Source: an uncultured Oscillospiraceae bacterium
GTDB taxonomy: Bacteria > Bacillota > Clostridia > Oscillospirales > Oscillospiraceae
Reading direction: 5' to 3'
DNA length: 34,934 nucleotides
NCBI GenBank assembly: GCA_947625355.1
Contig: CANQOA010000019.1
Location: forward strand, 1-34,934
Position 1 is the stretch's first letter. Each line of letters opens with the position of its first letter. The position numbers and the translations under genes were made by a program. Shown here one piece after another: positions 29,661 to 34,934 of the stretch. The notes under the pieces were generated by a model, which made no database searches, was not told where the DNA came from, and was given only the letters and a program-made list of their open reading frames with translations.

Positions 29661-29698
29661 CCGCCGCGCCGCGCAAAAAGTCGAATCAGGACAAACCG

Positions 29699-29743
29699 GG
29701 AAAGCATAGTCTGCTCACGGAGGTGATGACGGCTATGCTTTCC
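29699..29743 (+). promoter_or_regulatory. Perfect 11-bp inverted repeat around the sigK ribosome site and start
   Basis: GGAAAGCATAG (29699-29709) is repeated as its exact complement CTATGCTTTCC (29733-29743). The 23-base loop holds GGAGG (29719-29723), and the start codon 29735-29737 lies in the 3' arm. In RNA this would hide the start; in DNA it could be an operator. CATAGTCT (29704-29711) weakly recalls a sigma-E -10 element. Confidence 0.6.
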
Positions 29744-30394
29744 GCCACTTTTATGCTGCTGCTCTCCAGCGCGCTGCTGATGCTGCGACTGGGGGACAAC
29801 GCCTCGTCCTTTCCCCGTCCGCTGAAGCCCCAGGAGGAGCAGCAGTACATCGAGCGGGCCATCCAGGGGGATCTGGAAGCCCGGAACACGCTCATCGAAC
29901 ATAACCTGCGCCTGGTGATGCATATCATCAAGAAATACTACACCACCAGCGCCGACGCCGAGGACCTGGTGTCCATCGGCACCATCGGCCTGATCAAGGG
30001 CGTTTCCACATACCGGCCCGACAAGGGCGTGCGCCTGGCCACCTATGCCTCCAAGTGTATCGAAAACGAGATCCTCATGCACTTCCGCGGCCAAAAAAAG
30101 ACCGCCGGGGACGTATCGCTGTCCGACGCGCTGGACGCGGACGGAGAGGGGGAGGGGCTAGCGCTGCTGGACACCATCTCCTGCGATCAGGATATGCTGG
30201 AAGAGCTGTCCCGCATGGAGGCGGCGGAGCATGTCCGCAAGGCCGTGGCGACCGTACTGGCGGGGCGGGAGGCGGAGGTCATCCGTCTGCGCTACGGCCT
30301 GGACGGCAGCCCGCCCATGCCCCAGCGGGAGGTGGCCGCCCGCATCGGCATCTCCCGGTCCTATGTATCACGCCGCTGTAATTGTAAGTCATGA
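29735..30394 (+). CDS. sigK: Pro-sigma-K, interrupted in region 4.2 (3' end missing)
   Basis: The late mother-cell sporulation sigma factor. The first roughly 20 residues are a hydrophobic pro-sequence, as removed by SpoIVFB in Bacillus, and PRPLKPQEEQQYIERAIQGD begins the mature protein. Region 2 is intact (LIEHNLRLVMHIIKKY, EDLVSIGTIGLIKGV, LATYASKCIENEI). Region 4 reads normally (REAEVIRLRYGLD, REVAARIGISRSYVSR) up to Arg213 at 30371-30373; relatives continue with IEK-type residues and about 20-30 more. Here six unrelated codons and a TGA follow. The lost end is part of the -35-binding helix, so this copy should be inactive unless the inserted DNA is removed. I prefer ATG 29735; ATG 29726 is only two bases from GGAGG. 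Confidence 0.88.
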   Translation: MLSATFMLLLSSALLMLRLGDNASSFPRPLKPQEEQQYIERAIQGDLEARNTLIEHNLRLVMHIIKKYYTTSADAEDLVSIGTIGLIKGVSTYRPDKGVRLATYASKCIENEILMHFRGQKKTAGDVSLSDALDADGEGEGLALLDTISCDQDMLEELSRMEAAEHVRKAVATVLAGREAEVIRLRYGLDGSPPMPQREVAARIGISRSYVSRRCNCKS

Positions 30395-30633
30395 CCACCA
30401 GTAAACTGGTGGCATGACGAGCCCCTAGAAGGGGCTATTGCCGGCTTAGCCCCTATAAGGGGCACTGAAGGTTTATCATCGCATCACACGCCCCACCACC
30501 CGTAAACGGGTCATAGCTTCTATCTTGGCGTAGGTGCTAAATCTTAGTGCCCCACTCACAGGGTTTGCTTCCCTTCGGGAAGCCTCATGCTAAAGCTATT
30601 TTTCTTCCCCCGGTAAAACCGGGGGCTTTCTTT
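30388..30633 (+). ncRNA. Candidate structured RNA, HEARO / IscB omega-RNA-like, with its own terminator
   Basis: Seven hairpins follow one another: 30388-30418 (13 bp with one bulged A, TAAA loop), 30420-30436, 30449-30463, 30498-30511, 30533-30551 (two G-U), 30567-30583 and the terminator 30607-30625. Between them are unpaired stretches that look conserved-type (ATTGCCGGCTT, CACTGAAGG). No reading frame fits. Density, plus-strand terminator and an ATGA at the 5' edge recall the HEARO/omega-RNAs of IscB elements, whose guide is the flank just upstream; no iscB follows. Identity rests on memory of the class, not a search. A non-autonomous IS200/IS605-type remnant is the main alternative. Confidence 0.4.
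30607..30633 (+). terminator. Intrinsic terminator of the hairpin-rich segment
   Basis: A perfect 8-bp stem, CCCCCGGT (30607-30614) with ACCGGGGG (30618-30625), and an AAA loop, followed by CTTTCTTTC. Confidence 0.7.
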
Positions 30634-30653
30634 CACGTCTAAAGACACCAGTG

Positions 30654-30692
30654 AAACCCGGAAAGCCTTGTGTGTCAGGCGTTTCCGGGTTT
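30654..30692. repeat. Inverted repeat in the gap after the candidate RNA
   Basis: AAACCCGGAAA (30654-30664) pairs exactly with TTTCCGGGTTT (30682-30692), with an inner GCC/GGC. The rest of 30634-30782 has no gene; it also holds CGCTTA-TTG-TAAGCG and a second copy of ATTGTAAG (30721-30728; first copy 30381-30388). Confidence 0.6.
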
Positions 30693-30782
30693 GTGTTCAT
30701 TTTAGAGTAGCACCGCGCTTATTGTAAGCGGTCAGGAAAACAGGAAATTTTGATACAAGGCGGCCATTCATCGGCATAAACC

Positions 30783-30816
30783 AAGGCTCACCGAAACGGT
30801 GGGCCTTGATAGTTTT
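30783..30816. terminator. Terminator downstream of the accessory gene
   Basis: An 11-bp stem (30783-30793 with 30797-30807, one G-U) with an AAA loop. On the plus strand TAGTTTTTA follows. It lies just past the 3' end of the minus-strand gene at 30822 and may stop transcription both ways. Confidence 0.65.
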
Positions 30817-30821
30817 TATAC

Positions 30822-31961
30822 TTAGCTGACATTGTCTAGCTTTTTGTCGAGTTCAATTCCACCATGAGATGCGGCCAATATTAGTGTTTTTGTGCTCTCG
30901 GTAATAGATTTAATCGCCGCTTGCTCTTTTTGATTAGCAAGTTCAATTGCCTGCGCTTCAGCTAATGTCTTACGAGCCTGCGCTTCAATAAGAGCGGTTT
31001 CAGCAACGGTCTTTTTTGTTTCCGCTTCTATTTGATTAATCTCTGCTTTTACTTTTTTTCGCTCGCAGTGGTCGTTAGCAAGCTCATTTCCTTTTGACAG
31101 GATTGCCATCAATCCTGTGCTTACTTCACCATCTTTAGTTGTTGTTTTCCCTACTATTGCTCTGCCAATCCATACAGCAGTTAAAACAGATGCAGGCGTT
31201 GTAGGGAATCCCATTTCCATAAAACCAGGTGATCCAACAGCGGTTTTAATCGTCACCTGCCCACTAGTATCCTCAGTGCCAAAATAGTCAGCAAATGCCT
31301 TGTTGATTTGTAAAACTGACAATTGCAAATTAAGACTGTCCTGAACACGGAAGTCAGATGTTGTTGTTTTAATTAATGTTAGATGAATTCTACTGTCAGT
31401 GATGTAACAAGGGTGTAGATTGCGATAAACCATATCAGAGTACTGGGTTATATCAGAAATTGTCTGCTGTGCGCGAAGTACTCTGAACAGATACACATCG
31501 GCCCACCATTCGATTTGTTTTATCCATTTTACAGACCGCTTATGTTTGTACTCACATTGATCGTATTCATCTTTCAAGTATTTATGTTTAATCTCAGAAG
31601 TAATATCCTCCAATATGCCAATAGCTATGCGTCTGCCACTAAAATCTGGTATAACAACCAAATCACCTTTCGCCATTCTCCTATAAAATGAGTCCATTTG
31701 GCTATAAATCAATCCCGGGCGTTTTTCATCGGGATATAACTTAGCTATTGCCTCTTTCTTTTCCGTTTCAGTCTTTTCCTTGTCAGAGATAAGGTCCGAA
31801 GAAACTAAATCCCAGCCCAAGGCAATGTAGTTGTTAAAATGAAAATCGAAGTAATACTTGCCAGACTGGGTCCTAAAAAACCATATATGTGTACTTTCCT
31901 CGATTATAGGGATATTAAATGCATTTGCCAGACTATGAACTATGTTTTCAGCATTAAGCAT
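30822..31961 (-). CDS. Accessory protein: EVE/PUA-like N-domain with C-terminal coiled coil, possible defence factor
   Basis: A 379-residue protein I do not recognise as a whole. Residues 25-185 follow the pattern of EVE-like (PUA superfamily) domains at the front of Mrr/McrB-type restriction proteins: WFFRTQSGKYY, then IALGWDLV, AIAKLYPDE, MAKGDLVVIPDF, RRIAIGILEDI and VKWIKQIEW. A middle part (186-250) is unassigned; 252-272 is mildly hydrophobic. Residues 295-345 are an Ala/Glu/Lys-rich coiled coil. No nuclease motif is evident. The gene is far more AT-rich than its surroundings and is read against the element's other genes from its own promoter, typical of cargo. GAGGGA precedes the ATG. 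Confidence 0.6.
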   Translation of the reverse strand: MLNAENIVHSLANAFNIPIIEESTHIWFFRTQSGKYYFDFHFNNYIALGWDLVSSDLISDKEKTETEKKEAIAKLYPDEKRPGLIYSQMDSFYRRMAKGDLVVIPDFSGRRIAIGILEDITSEIKHKYLKDEYDQCEYKHKRSVKWIKQIEWWADVYLFRVLRAQQTISDITQYSDMVYRNLHPCYITDSRIHLTLIKTTTSDFRVQDSLNLQLSVLQINKAFADYFGTEDTSGQVTIKTAVGSPGFMEMGFPTTPASVLTAVWIGRAIVGKTTTKDGEVSTGLMAILSKGNELANDHCERKKVKAEINQIEAETKKTVAETALIEAQARKTLAEAQAIELANQKEQAAIKSITESTKTLILAASHGGIELDKKLDNVS

Positions 31962-32006
31962 ATTACTTCCCTCGTTTCTCTTTATAGGAGGATTAGCATT
32001 TAATTA

Positions 32007-32035
32007 ATTATACCATATTTTGTACCTGTATGCAA
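32007..32035 (-). promoter_or_regulatory. Promoter of the accessory gene
   Basis: Reading leftwards, TTGCAT (32030-32035), 17 bp, then a perfect TATAAT (32007-32012), about 45 bases before the start codon. Confidence 0.7.
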
Positions 32036-32084
32036 CAGCGGCACACAAATCTAGGTTGAATAATGTTAGATAGGAGGTTAGTCC

Positions 32085-32798
32085 ATGCCATTTGATTACT
32101 ACTACGGCGGACAATCGGAGAGCTTCGCATTTTACCGCATACCCCGTATCCTCGTGACCGGGCAGGAGTTTCGGTGCCTGTCCACGGACGCCAAGCTGCT
32201 GTACGGCCTCATGCTGGACCGCATGGGCCTTTCCATGCGGAACGGCTGGTATGACGCCCAGGGCCGGGTGTTCATCTACTACACCATGGAGCAGATACAG
32301 GAGGACATGAACTGCGGCCACGACAAGGCCCTCAAGCTGCTGGCCGAGCTGGACGCAGCCAAGGGCGTCGGCCTTATTGAGCGCGTAAAGCAGGGCCAGG
32401 GCAAGCCCACCATCATCTATGTGAAGCAGTTTACCGCCCCGGAGGTCCCGGCTCCCGCCCCAGACGAGGACGACGCAGAGGGCCGAGGTGCAGACATGGG
32501 AAAAGCCCACGTCAAGACATCGGATATTCCCATGTCCAGACATCGGAAAATCCGAGGTCAAGACTTCGATTTTTCCGAGGCAAATAAGAATAATATAAAC
32601 AAGACTGATATGAGCAATACTGATCCATCAATCTATCCATCCTATCCAGACCCCGGAGGATCGATGGATGGATACGAGCATGAGGCAAGAGAAAGTATCA
32701 TTTTCTCCCGTGGGAGTGGCGGCGCCTTCGGTGCCGACACTCTTGCAAGTATGCCGTTTGGTAGCACAAACGGCCTTGTTAGGGGGCGCTCCCCCTAA
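32085..32798 (+). CDS. repA: Replication initiator protein A (RepA N-terminal family), short form
   Basis: A 237-residue protein of the type encoded by clostridial integrative and mobilizable elements. The N-terminal winged-helix domain (about 10-115) has YRIPRILVTGQEFRCLSTDAKLLYGLMLDRM and YYTMEQIQEDMNCGHDKALKLL, the standard signature. An acidic linker and an Asn/Lys stretch follow. Long relatives then carry a second domain of roughly 100 residues; here the frame instead runs through GC-rich palindromic DNA from about codon 205 (RESIIFSRGSGG...) to its stop, so the C-terminus is probably lost. TAGGAGG lies seven bases before the ATG. It should start replication of the excised circle, if still active. 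Confidence 0.82.
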   Translation: MPFDYYYGGQSESFAFYRIPRILVTGQEFRCLSTDAKLLYGLMLDRMGLSMRNGWYDAQGRVFIYYTMEQIQEDMNCGHDKALKLLAELDAAKGVGLIERVKQGQGKPTIIYVKQFTAPEVPAPAPDEDDAEGRGADMGKAHVKTSDIPMSRHRKIRGQDFDFSEANKNNINKTDMSNTDPSIYPSYPDPGGSMDGYEHEARESIIFSRGSGGAFGADTLASMPFGSTNGLVRGRSP

Positions 32799-32837
32799 TA
32801 CCCCACCACGGAAATACGTCTCACCGTGAGACGCATT
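32700..32837 (+). other. Candidate origin of transfer (oriT): cluster of inverted repeats before mobC
   Basis: Four palindromes lie in a row: CGGCGCC/GGTGCCG around 32719-32736, GCCGTTTG/CAAACGGC (32753-32760 with 32767-32774), TTAGGGGG/CCCCCTAA (32779-32786 with 32791-32798) and CGTCTCAC/GTGAGACG (32817-32824 with 32826-32833). The position just upstream of mobC and the relaxase gene is the normal place of a MOBP oriT. The nick site is not identified. Confidence 0.55.
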
Positions 32838-32864
32838 TATATCACGACACGAAAGGATGATGCC

Positions 32865-33173
32865 ATGAGAAAACGAAACCGCCATGTGAGCGTCTGGATG
32901 AATGACGGGGAGTACCGCCATCTGAAGCAACAGGCTCACGCCGCCGGAATGGGCATAGACCCATTCATCCGCTGCCTCGTCGCAGACAGGGAGATCGCCT
33001 CCAGGCCGCCCGACAGCTACGACGACATCCTGCGGGAACTGTCCGCCATCGGCAACAACGTCAACCAGATCGCCCGCTGGGCCAACGCCAGGAAAGGCGT
33101 GACCGACCCGGAAATGGAGACTGCCGCCGCCCTCGTCCGTCAGGCGTGGCGGCTGGTGAAGGGGGTGCGGTGA
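32865..33173 (+). CDS. mobC: MobC-like relaxosome accessory protein
   Basis: A basic protein of about 102 residues. It has a ribbon-helix-helix start (RHVSVWMNDGEYRHLKQQA) and the MobC core LRELSAIGNNVNQIARWAN, which binds near oriT and helps the relaxase open the strands. I start at 32865, seven bases after AAAGGA; the frame is open from 32826, within the palindrome. Its TGA overlaps the relaxase ATG (TGATG), so the two are translated as a unit. Confidence 0.88.
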   Translation: MRKRNRHVSVWMNDGEYRHLKQQAHAAGMGIDPFIRCLVADREIASRPPDSYDDILRELSAIGNNVNQIARWANARKGVTDPEMETAAALVRQAWRLVKGVR

Positions 33174-34510
33174 TGGCATACGACAAGATCTATACGATCC
33201 GCGCCCGGCTCTATGACCGCATCTGCTATATCCTGGACCCGGCCAAGACCACCGCAGAGGGCGGACTTGTGCTTCAATACGGGCTGAACTGCGACCTGCT
33301 GGACGCCTACCGGGAAATGATGCACACCAAGGCCAGATGGGACAAGCAGAGCGGCGTCCAGGGCTATCACCTTATCCACTCTTATGCGCCCGGAGAGATC
33401 GAGCCGGAGCAGGCCCACGCCCTGGGCGTGGAGCTTGCCGACCGCCTTGTGGGGGATCGCTTCGAGGCCGTCGTTGCCACCCATATTGACCACGCCCACA
33501 TCCACTGTCATATCATCTTCAACTCCGTGTCCTTCATGGACGGGAGGAAGTACCGCAGCAACTTCAAAGCCTACTACGGGGACATACGGGGCACGTCCAA
33601 CGCCATAAGCCGGGAAAACGGCCTGTCCGTCATTGAGCCGAGGAACCACGGCAAACACTACGTCGAATGGGACGCCGAGCGCCAGGGCAAGCCCAATATC
33701 CGCGCTCTTATCCGGCAGGACATGGACGCGGCCATCGAGGACAGCTTTACCTACCAGAGCTTTTTCGCCGTTCTGGAGAAGCGGGGCTACACCGTAAAGC
33801 GCGGCCCCAATGTGACCCACACCGCCGTCCGGCCACCGGGCGGCTCCCGCTTCATCCGGCTGGACAGCCTGGGAGACAGCTACACCGAGGCGGGGATCAT
33901 GGAGCGGTTGAAAGGCGTCCGGGCCGGGCAGAAAAAGCAGCCGGAATTACCGAATATTCCCGTCGTGACTCTGGTCCCCGGCAGACGGTGTACCATAAAG
34001 CGGGGCATGATAGACCACCGCCCCGGCCAGAAGCTGCATGGCCTCCGGGCGCTGTATGTGCGGTATCTGTATATCCTGGGCGTGATAGGCGTCCGGGGCC
34101 AGCGCCGCCGTCCCGTCCCGTTCAACGTCCGGGCGGAGGTACGGAGGCTGGACAGATACAAAGAGCAATTCCGGCTCCTGCACAATTACCACGTTGAAAC
34201 CACAGACCAGCTATCCATGCTCCGGGACGCTTTGCAAACGGATATGGAGGCGGAGATAGAGGCCCGTCGGGACCTATATCGCCGCAAGCGCCGAGGCGAG
34301 GACGTGGACGGCGAGATCGCCCTGGCCAACAAAAGCATTTGGGCGGTGCGGAAGGAAATTCGCGTCTACGACAGGATCGCCGCAGAGCTTCCTGGCATCC
34401 GGGAACAGGTGGAGGAATACACACAATCACAGAAGAAGAATCAAAACATAGACCATGCCAAGGCAAGAGAAAGGAGGGAGCCGTTCACCCTACCGCGCAC
34501 AGATAGGTAG
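33173..34510 (+). CDS. Relaxase / mobilization nuclease (MOBP type)
   Basis: A 445-residue relaxase that would nick oriT and lead the strand into a recipient. The N-terminal domain has a candidate catalytic Tyr19 in DRICYILDP, a GYHLIHSYAPGE strand and the metal site THIDHAHIHCHIIFNSV (His104, His107, His109, His111 and His113). A second part (about 190-300) ends in an arginine-rich segment, and the C-terminus (about 340-440) is a charged helical region. The start overlaps mobC. It carries no conjugation channel genes, so transfer would depend on a helper element. The stop lies one base before a long nested inverted repeat. Confidence 0.9.
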   Translation: MAYDKIYTIRARLYDRICYILDPAKTTAEGGLVLQYGLNCDLLDAYREMMHTKARWDKQSGVQGYHLIHSYAPGEIEPEQAHALGVELADRLVGDRFEAVVATHIDHAHIHCHIIFNSVSFMDGRKYRSNFKAYYGDIRGTSNAISRENGLSVIEPRNHGKHYVEWDAERQGKPNIRALIRQDMDAAIEDSFTYQSFFAVLEKRGYTVKRGPNVTHTAVRPPGGSRFIRLDSLGDSYTEAGIMERLKGVRAGQKKQPELPNIPVVTLVPGRRCTIKRGMIDHRPGQKLHGLRALYVRYLYILGVIGVRGQRRRPVPFNVRAEVRRLDRYKEQFRLLHNYHVETTDQLSMLRDALQTDMEAEIEARRDLYRRKRRGEDVDGEIALANKSIWAVRKEIRVYDRIAAELPGIREQVEEYTQSQKKNQNIDHAKARERREPFTLPRTDR

Positions 34511-34664
34511 GCTGTTATCCCCCGCGGGGAGTGTGATCCGGCGTCCGGCCCCCGTCAAGGCTGGCGTCTGCTTCGCAGCCGCTCACGAGCCGGCCAGTCT
34601 GCGGACTGGCCGGGCCTTGACAGAAACCGGGCGCCGGATCATTTGTCGGTAAGGGGATAACAGC
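34511..34664 (+). repeat. Nested inverted repeat of 154 nt after the relaxase gene
   Basis: Four arms lie inside one another: GCTGTTATCCCC (34511-34522) with GGGGATAACAGC (34653-34664); a 15-bp arm with one mismatch (34534-34548 with 34627-34641); GTCAAGGC (34554-34561) with GCCTTGAC (34614-34621); and an inner 10-bp hairpin (34590-34599 with 34604-34613, loop TGCG). A small CTGC-TTC-GCAG hairpin lies beside the inner one, giving a branched fold. No gene lies here. Confidence 0.75.
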
Positions 34665-34667
34665 AGC

Positions 34668-34690
34668 AAAGCCCGCGTTTCGCGGGCTTT
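34668..34690. terminator. Hairpin after the nested repeat, possible terminator
   Basis: A perfect 10-bp stem, AAAGCCCGCG (34668-34677) with CGCGGGCTTT (34681-34690), loop TTT. The T-run is only the last three bases of the stem, so termination may be weak. Confidence 0.5.
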
Positions 34691-34750
34691 GGGCATAGTG
34701 GGAGCGCGGGCGCACCGCCGGAGGCTGGGTGCTGGCCCCGGCCCGGTGCT

Positions 34751-34778
34751 GGAAATTCGTCTCACCATGAGACGCATT
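34751..34778 (+). repeat. Second copy of the oriT-side hairpin
   Basis: A 28-base stretch nearly identical to 32810-32837 (two differences), both folding as CGTCTCA/TGAGACG. One copy lies before mobC, the other before the promoter at 34821. Confidence 0.75.
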
Positions 34779-34820
34779 TCCGGCAGCATAGAAATTGCCA
34801 AGGGAAATAAAAGAAAGCGG

Positions 34821-34849
34821 TTGACACGCCTCGTCGCCTCGCATATAAT
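34821..34849 (+). promoter_or_regulatory. Consensus sigma-A promoter near the window end
   Basis: TTGACA (34821-34826), exactly 17 bp, and TATAAT (34844-34849): both hexamers are perfect, the strongest promoter in the window. It must serve a gene that begins past 34934. Confidence 0.85.
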
Positions 34850-34876
34850 ATATCTGCGGGTGTATCTCAGCCCTAA

Positions 34877-34933
34877 ATGAGAAACTTATTGCGCGGGCTT
34901 CTCTTGGCCCTTGATCAAGACAGTTACAAGTGA
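34877..34933 (+). CDS. Possible leader peptide, 18 residues
   Basis: The reading frame MRNLLRGLLLALDQDSYK begins about 21 bases after the expected transcription start and ends just before the window edge. It is rich in leucine (seven of 18). There is no good ribosome site (GCGGGTG is the nearest purine-rich run), so translation is unproven. A short leader ORF behind a strong promoter suggests attenuation of the next gene, but it may be chance. Confidence 0.35.
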   Translation: MRNLLRGLLLALDQDSYK

Positions 34934-34934
34934 G

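Follow-up and report, generated by a model that had tools for sequence, protein, structure and literature searches.

Developmental splitting of a gene has, to our knowledge, been described from few spore-formers, mostly with prophage-like elements. In Bacillus subtilis, skr is a recombination directionality factor (RDF) gene directly before spoIVCA (PMC6957869), CD1234 of Clostridioides difficile is a small RDF under sigma-E and SpoIIID (PMC5025042), and island IV of the Bacillus cereus group carries defence-type cargo (type I restriction; PMC10745906, PMC5595907). Here we describe a stretch of 34,934 nucleotides from an uncultured Oscillospiraceae bacterium (contig CANQOA010000019.1; the window is this whole stretch), in which sigK, the gene of sigma-K, breaks off and is followed by an element of foreign DNA. 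An earlier note, made from the letters of this DNA alone, had proposed that this might be an independent skin-like case, placed at another codon and carried by a plasmid-like element. Our reading, to which we give a probability of roughly 0.78, is that a site-specific, mobilizable skin-like element was inserted into sigK at codon 214 (ATG frame, region 4.2) by a large serine recombinase (LSR) and would be excised in the mother cell.

Results

The sigK break and the missing 3' end

The window is contig C19 of a genome (G000) of 78 contigs. Its sigK frame extends from a GTG at 29723 to 30394, with an ATG at 29735 from which the Arg of SRSYVSR is numbered Arg213, and ends SRSYVSR-RCNCKS-TGA (Arg codon 30371-30373, TGA 30392-30394). 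NCBIfam SigK models cover the product up to this Arg and none reaches beyond it; frame and profile matches thus agree with the earlier description of a normal sigK followed by six foreign codons and a stop. With the window SigK as query we obtained 60 relatives, 35 of them from the same genus, and the 3' end was read in 30 genus loci. The site is empty in 21 of the 30, where sigK continues with IEKKALE(K/R)LR or near variants to a normal stop, and nine (G000, G011, G012, G015, G021, G022, G026, G029, G032) end R(C/R)(N/Y/D)CK at the identical codon. Outside the 30 loci, G007 is cut elsewhere, G023 was left unread, and at the threshold applied sigK was not matched in G020, G024 or G005, the last giving a SigE-like match only.

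The missing end of the window gene, with the expected IEK-type codons, was located near the beginning of C18, another contig of G000 (...GCTTACAATCCCGGCGGCGGAAAGTATCGCGC-ATCGAAAAGCGGGCGCTGGAG..., encoding VSR-IEKRALEKLRGQLE-stop), where an LSR gene, an attachment arm, the sigK 3' end and rimP-nusA follow one another. The exact codon pattern for IEKKALE-LR gave 0 matches to this end because the coding there is AAATTG, and it was the LSR search that located it; the G000 element is known from these two ends, the window and the C18 start. Both halves of sigK are in frame and in the same orientation, and joining them on paper restores the gene: the rejoined form scores 274 bits against TIGR02846, the cut form 255 and an intact relative 273 (all below the cut-off of 298.65), and against PRK05803 the rejoined form scores 272 and the cut form 252, both passing the cut-off of 252. 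No second intact sigK was found in G000, in which the next full-length match is SigE-like (43%). The LSR (534 aa, C18:239-1840) contains Resolvase, Recombinase and Zn-ribbon domains and has the invariant catalytic-domain residues, S29 included. It is 99% identical to the LSR of G012, while the sigK genes of the two genomes are 90% identical.

With 78 contigs and the sigK ends on separate ones, an assembly or binning artefact had to be considered, and we regard it as extremely improbable; for the overall pattern it is refuted. Nine of the 30 genus loci share the cut codon, and a single contig holds both sigK ends in G012 and again in G021 (9,720 and 15,941 bp apart, GT to GT), so that the break is not a chance event or a one-off misassembly; moreover, cultured isolates are among the named loci, and three ordered sigK pieces share one contig in G135 (a one-contig genome), G237, G291, G337 and G449. 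The surrounding gene order is also retained, with rimP observed after sigK in all intact genus loci but G004 and G017 (19 of 21), rimP beyond the element in G012 and G021, and rimP-nusA after the 3' piece in G000, G012 and G021.

Attachment sites

The right arm reads GCTTACAATCCCGGCGGCGG. Its exact inverted repeat occurs at the left end in G021, whose arms form a 20-bp perfect inverted repeat, and the centre between the arms is AAAGTATC. The dinucleotide GT is common to left and right junctions. The cores of G026 are GTATCGCGC on the left and GTTTCCAGG on the right, and its intact sister G030 has GTTTCCAGG; therefore, to the right of the shared GT, the right junction holds host DNA and the left junction element DNA, which places the exchange at or before this GT. 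In G000 the two short cores differ in a single base (GTATCACGC vs GTATCGCGC). The element half contains a stop in some other genera (TATGTATAGCG; L138, L160, L186), which joining would remove. In-frame halves, an LSR, a core repeat and relatives with an empty site bear out the skin-like arrangement proposed earlier.

Spread of the recombinase family

The LSR family of the window site (site 3 in the numbering used below) was found in 52 of 400 family genomes at E<=1e-130, and in 35 of 246 among those of good quality. The break is real in the window strain, as had been claimed, but it is no single-strain case, the element lineage being family-wide. When 30 LSR loci were read, a sigK 3' piece followed the LSR directly in 26, two (L097, L098) had a reverse layout in which the LSR stands at the opposite end of the element and points towards the 5' piece of sigK, L092 had the 5' piece 7.6 kb off on the same contig, and L100 was assigned to no layout. 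A scan of genome_contigs gave 563 LSR relatives, and among the best 80 of the 563 the LSR lies directly beside a sigK piece in 73: 54 with the 3' piece recognized by script, nine by eye (3' pieces, some diverged, in L132, L149, L159, L160, L172, L173, L176, L202, L208) and ten in the reverse layout (L140, L141, L142, L157, L161, L164, L167, L178, L186, L195). Neither layout was seen in seven of the 80 (L134, L145, L147, L187, L188, L199, L201), of which L188 stops 34 bp past the LSR and L187 gave no 3' piece. The sigK 5' piece and the LSR are on one strand in 13 loci, 3.2-9.8 kb apart. Isolates carrying the LSR include Flavonifractor plautii ATCC 29863, Pseudoflavonifractor capillosus An827, Oscillibacter valericigenes An907, Blautia wexlerae MSK.20.46 and Caproicibacter fermentans EA1.

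This recurrence of position, arms and dedicated LSR across many genera refutes a chance insertion of a plasmid or insertion sequence into sigK, an explanation which the RepA_N and relaxase genes adjoining the break might favour and to which we attach a negligible probability. We also rejected the RepA/relaxase module as cause of the break, since same-site elements of other genera are without the module and the LSR is their common part. As a separate observation, L199 (Anaerotruncus colihominis JM4-15) and L145 (a Flavonifractor metagenome-assembled genome, MAG) show an apparent intact attP after the LSR, with both arms round the core, away from sigK. L145 was considered as a circular excised element and rejected, because the sequence around is chromosome-like and no terminal repeat was found in it.

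Three insertion sites and sigK in up to four pieces

An intact SigK served as query to look for short sigK pieces in 35 genomes, and the regions of 11 genomes were read. Breaks occur at site 1, after HI(I/V) and before KKYY (~aa 75 of the intact query), at site 2, between CIE and NEILM (~aa 122 of the query), and at site 3, the window break. Site 2 is the place of the B. subtilis skin, which lies at codon ~112 with the core AATGA. Among 18 LSRs, six per site, identity within a site is 52-87% (site 1), 41-62% (site 2) and 73-94% (site 3), and between sites 19-29%, some pairs giving no match; judged by these identities, the three sites are served by three unrelated LSR families. The site-1 LSR search gave 81 of 400 genomes at E<=1e-80, the matches of ~38-45% identity being probably other LSRs; in the best 30, which were checked, 29 LSR loci lie beside a site-1-cut sigK piece, the exception being G124, where 2.4 kb separate the two. 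The exact site-2 junction pattern is present in 17 of 400 family genomes (reversed control 0).

Site-2 arms are mostly TGTGAGGATAGC/GCTATCCTCACA, and G007, of the window genus, belongs here. Its break (~aa 113) was first read as an insertion sequence, with ends of 12 bp and a repeat of 3 bp, a candidate rejected because the TGTGAGGATAGC/GCTATCCTCACA arms and an LSR occur at the same place in other genera. The G007 element (L049) is 2.7 kb long, with a MATE-like ORF (by eye) and a short LSR frame of 358 aa.

Several genomes carry more than one element. In G135 (one contig, 4,308,696 bp) sigK aa 7-122 stand at 1133681 and aa ~117-220 extend to 1145258, followed by an LSR at 1165306-1166916 and the sigK 3' piece, giving elements of ~10.9 and 21.7 kb. 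The cultured isolate O. valericigenes An907 also has two or three elements. A single contig likewise holds three sigK pieces in G237 (elements ~17/103 kb), G291 (~56/7 kb), G337 (~18.5/30 kb) and G449 (~18.7/7.5 kb). The site-3 element of G237 (contig C1, ~260-363 kb), at ~103 kb, is ten times the usual size. G148 has four sigK pieces and three LSRs, with three pieces on one contig, the last on another, and a short site-2 LSR (344 aa); G124 has site-1 and site-2 junctions together with a site-3 LSR, and G304 (site-2 junction unread) very likely has the same triple set. Among the matches listed for the multi-piece genomes, the full-length ones are SigE-like only (41-47%). Joined on paper, the multi-piece genes give sigma-K of 229-244 aa which score like an intact relative. 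That sigK is kept in frame across three or four pieces is strong indirect evidence, at the level of sequence, that the joins take place.

A small ORF before the recombinase and a CATA box

An ORF of ~45 aa (in G000 MVLAKKERELDVICQYAEKGESAANSIQRSLRVFIERELRAHRENLTTAL) directly precedes the site-3 LSR in 66 of 67 upstream regions, L199 being the one without it. It has no Pfam or NCBIfam match, and we infer that it is a candidate excision factor (RDF). Upstream of its ribosome site, CATANNNT was found in 56 of 63 cases (mean of 500 shuffles 3.2, max 11), and a GCAA block precedes the box by 16-17 nt. The same CATANNNT occurs within 60 nt upstream of sigK in all 29 genus loci scored (shuffle mean 1.0), and in 39 of 57 when all loci are taken (shuffle mean 1.9, max 6). 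Site-1 LSRs have a different conserved small ORF running into the LSR start, with CATANNNT in 22 of 28 (shuffle mean 5.3, max 13). The LSR of G000 itself is preceded by a sigma-A-like TTGACA-N17-TACAAT (by eye). The SpoIIID consensus is WWRRACARNY, for which no confirmation was found in openly licensed literature; this box is present in only 9 of 45 small-ORF promoters (shuffle mean 0.4, max 3), which gives a hint of SpoIIID control but no rule.

Gain, loss and selection

On a sigK tree of the 30 genus members the cut/intact label requires seven changes, at least five of them forced by well-supported branches. This is no fewer than for shuffled labels (mean 8.0); the cut loci are scattered, and in the sister pairs G012/G034 and G026/G030 one member is cut and the other intact. 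Median dN/dS is 0.161 between cut genes (36 pairs), 0.133 in mixed pairs (183) and 0.121 between intact genes (204), and the pair G000-G029, both cut, has 0.074 at dS 0.20. The cut gene therefore appears to be under purifying selection, as expected if the gene remains functional.

If the element were selfish, an integrative mobilizable element knocking out sigK and leaving only for its own transfer, its carriers would be blocked late in sporulation. This is an unlikely alternative: it would agree with the scattered presence and the differing sister species, with the relaxase module, with the stops in some LSRs and with the failure of the attP-joint scans to find an excision product. It would not predict, however, that frame and conservation of the sigK pieces are maintained across dozens of species, even with two or three insertions, that purifying selection on cut genes is near that on intact ones, or that the small ORF and the CATA box are kept in nearly every site-3 LSR element with the upstream region read.

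Several observations weigh against developmental excision. Young insertions could carry old selection and would look alike. An in-frame stop interrupts 4 of the 52 LSR matches (G080, G180, G194, G390), and in L134, L145, L147 and L199 no sigK 3' piece follows the LSR; an attP-like intact site is present in two of these loci. The exact attP-joint pattern gave 0 matches in viral_contigs, in 400 family genomes and in 208 loci, a weak scan of limited sensitivity, because the pattern as run, both halves of which fit the ends of G000, G012 and G021, fitted both ends of only 4 of 13 other elements. Finally, the CATANNNT shuffles are single-base and the sequences related, the CATA box is not the textbook sigma-E -10, and the spacing between the CATA and the ACA-type box is ~16 nt at sigK vs ~26 nt at the small ORF.

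Cargo and mobilization module

The features of the locus are listed in Table 1. Pfam matches and a shift in G+C confirm the replication initiator, MobC and relaxase on DNA of different composition that the earlier note had read: G+C falls from ~0.64 to 0.39 at 31.0-32.0 kb and returns to ~0.6. The low-G+C part is mostly the cargo at 30811-32085, and the sister-species elements fetched are without that stretch; 30390-30649 and 30811-32085 are both missing from the sister elements compared. The hairpin-rich ~260 bp of 30390-30649, adjoining attL, look like a small transposon relic.

Table 1. Features of the cut sigK and of the left part of the element (positions in the window).
Feature	Position	Strand	Basis
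sigK promoter-like stretch: AGGACAAAC box, then GCATAGTCT (CATANNNT)	29688..29713	+	CATANNNT counts; sigma factor presumed
sigK 5' part, GTG 29723 or ATG 29735 to Arg of SRSYVSR	29723..30373	+	NCBIfam SigK models aa 4-217; genus sigK 98-73% identical
attL: host TAT, crossover GT 30365-30366, element arm ATCACGC-CGCTGTAATTGTAAGT	30362..30389	+	junction comparison
Six element-derived codons RCNCKS and TGA closing the cut sigK	30374..30394	+	RCNCK or RRYCK/RRDCK tail in 8 sister species
Nested insert of ~260 bp, short hairpins	30390..30649		sister elements compared are without it
Conserved element left-end region	30650..30810		~160 bp 93-98% identical in G011, G012, G015, G026, G029, G032; 95 bp 100% in G022
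Cargo ORF, 379 aa, weakly similar to candidate defence protein PDC-S02	30822..31961	-	PADLOC E 4.9e-14, N-terminal part only
RepA_N replication initiator	32085..32798	+	Pfam E 4.2e-27; 92-95% identical in G011, G026, G029
NikA-like / MobC mobilization protein	32826..33173	+	Pfam E 1.4e-15 and 4.4e-10
MobA/VirD2-type relaxase	33146..34510	+	Pfam E 8.2e-35; 90% identical in G011 and G029
Element continuing to contig end	34511..34934		90% identical stretch in G012 element; recombinase, right arm and sigK 3' end on C18:1-1960

RepA_N, NikA/MobC and the relaxase are ~90-97% identical in G011, G026 and G029 and partly present in G032 and G015. The G012 element (L040) has only remnants of the repA/relaxase module, which stand on either side of an SBF-type permease and an OLD-type ATPase in the place of the module. 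Apart from a relaxase match of 32% in L189, the RepA/MobC/relaxase module was not found in the compared elements of other genera, which have other cargo. The plasmid-like genes of the carrier are thus present as claimed, but the module belongs to the genus level. No phage-like genes were found among the five window ORFs searched in Pfam and NCBIfam, and by this gene content the window element looks mobilizable rather than prophage-like. A free phage or plasmid form of the LSR was not found, the best among the matches listed being 34.8% (phage) and 36.3% (plasmid).

The 379-aa cargo ORF has no Pfam or NCBIfam match. Ten cargo ORFs were run through PADLOC, and cargo ORFs also through Pfam; the matches comprise an AriA/OLD-type ATPase (G012), a Pycsar-type cyclase (L138), a PtuA-like ATPase (B. 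wexlerae MSK.20.46) and, in P. capillosus An827, SIR2 and Fic proteins, with weak matches for L133 and none for the L154 ORF. To judge from these matches, the cargo is often, not always, defence-like. A 5.5-kb sigK element of a Lachnospiraceae MAG (L177:449-5963) has ORFs resembling shikimate-pathway enzymes (by eye).

A palindrome, GTCTCAC(C/A)(G/A)TGAGACG followed by CATTT, occurs at 32818 and 34759, is intergenic in these elements and was seen in 8 of 305 fetched loci; its recurrence may explain the assembly break at the window end. Rfam gave no match on 29700-34934 at E up to 0.5.

Discussion

In the mechanism that we propose, the LSR would insert the element by exchange at the GT within the VSR codons, and a vegetative cell would have truncated sigma-K only. 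During sporulation the small protein encoded before the LSR, made in the mother cell from a CATA-type promoter resembling that of sigK, would act as RDF and turn the LSR to excision; sigK would be rejoined exactly in the mother cell, and the spore would keep the element. Many relatives would have to shed two or three elements, every one by a separate LSR, before sigma-K is made. Horizontal transfer via the relaxase module would explain the scatter among species. Mother-cell excision of the window element is here assumed by analogy with known skin elements, and the cell probably must splice its own DNA to complete sporulation.

A wider view is that sigK might be a docking hub with three bays, used by three unrelated LSR lineages, each with its own att site and candidate excision factor. 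Sigma-K would then need two to three timed mother-cell excisions, as in an AND-gate, and the elements, many with defence-like cargo and some mobilizable, would ride into the spore unharmed. We hold this view tentatively, at somewhat less than even odds.

Gene splitting would here be a common, horizontally moving trait of a large gut-commensal family, in which spores matter for host-to-host spread. The family offers many natural replicates for the question whether such elements are parasites, regulators or both, with sister species that have or lack the element as comparison pairs, and it adds new LSR-RDF candidates. Automatic gene calling will report sigK as absent or truncated where such elements are present, and spore-formers may thereby pass for non-spore-formers.

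We found no report of sigK elements in Oscillospiraceae, or of two elements in one sigK, in the accessible text of the openly licensed literature, a scope outside which the 2013 survey (Abe et al., Mol. Microbiol.) lies. The B. subtilis skin (spoIVCA, skr) shares with the window element an in-frame cut of sigK, an LSR at the junction and a short core in a dyad, and it has its RDF gene directly before the LSR, where the window element has the candidate RDF (PMC6957869, PMC13141910). It differs in being a prophage remnant at another codon, which matches site 2, whereas the window has site 3, and the window LSR is likened to it by layout. The arrangement of small ORF and LSR is that of skr-spoIVCA (PMC6957869), and the CATA-type control is likened to that of CD1234 (PMC5025042). 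In skinCd of C. difficile (CD1231, CD1234) the LSR gene is likewise immediately upstream of the sigK 3' part and has a sigma-A type promoter, comparable to that of the window LSR (PMC5025042); in contrast, skinCd is prophage-like, with 19 genes, its sigK site differs from that of B. subtilis, and no relaxase is reported in the accessible text (PMC5025042). Island IV (in sigK) and gin (in gerE, ATCC 10987) of the B. cereus group are similar in their non-phage nature and serine recombinase and are excised in sporulation, as is proposed here; the former lies at sigK nt 195 and, in AH820, nt 423, the latter in gerE, and both have other cargo (PMC10745906, PMC5595907). The Alicyclobacillus MMB025 phage and C. 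perfringens phiS63 also integrate site-specifically in sigK (PMC13141910); they are complete phages, whereas no phage gene was found in the window ORFs searched. The kind of element is thus known from skin, and what is new is the site, the recombinase family, the mobilization module and the stacking.

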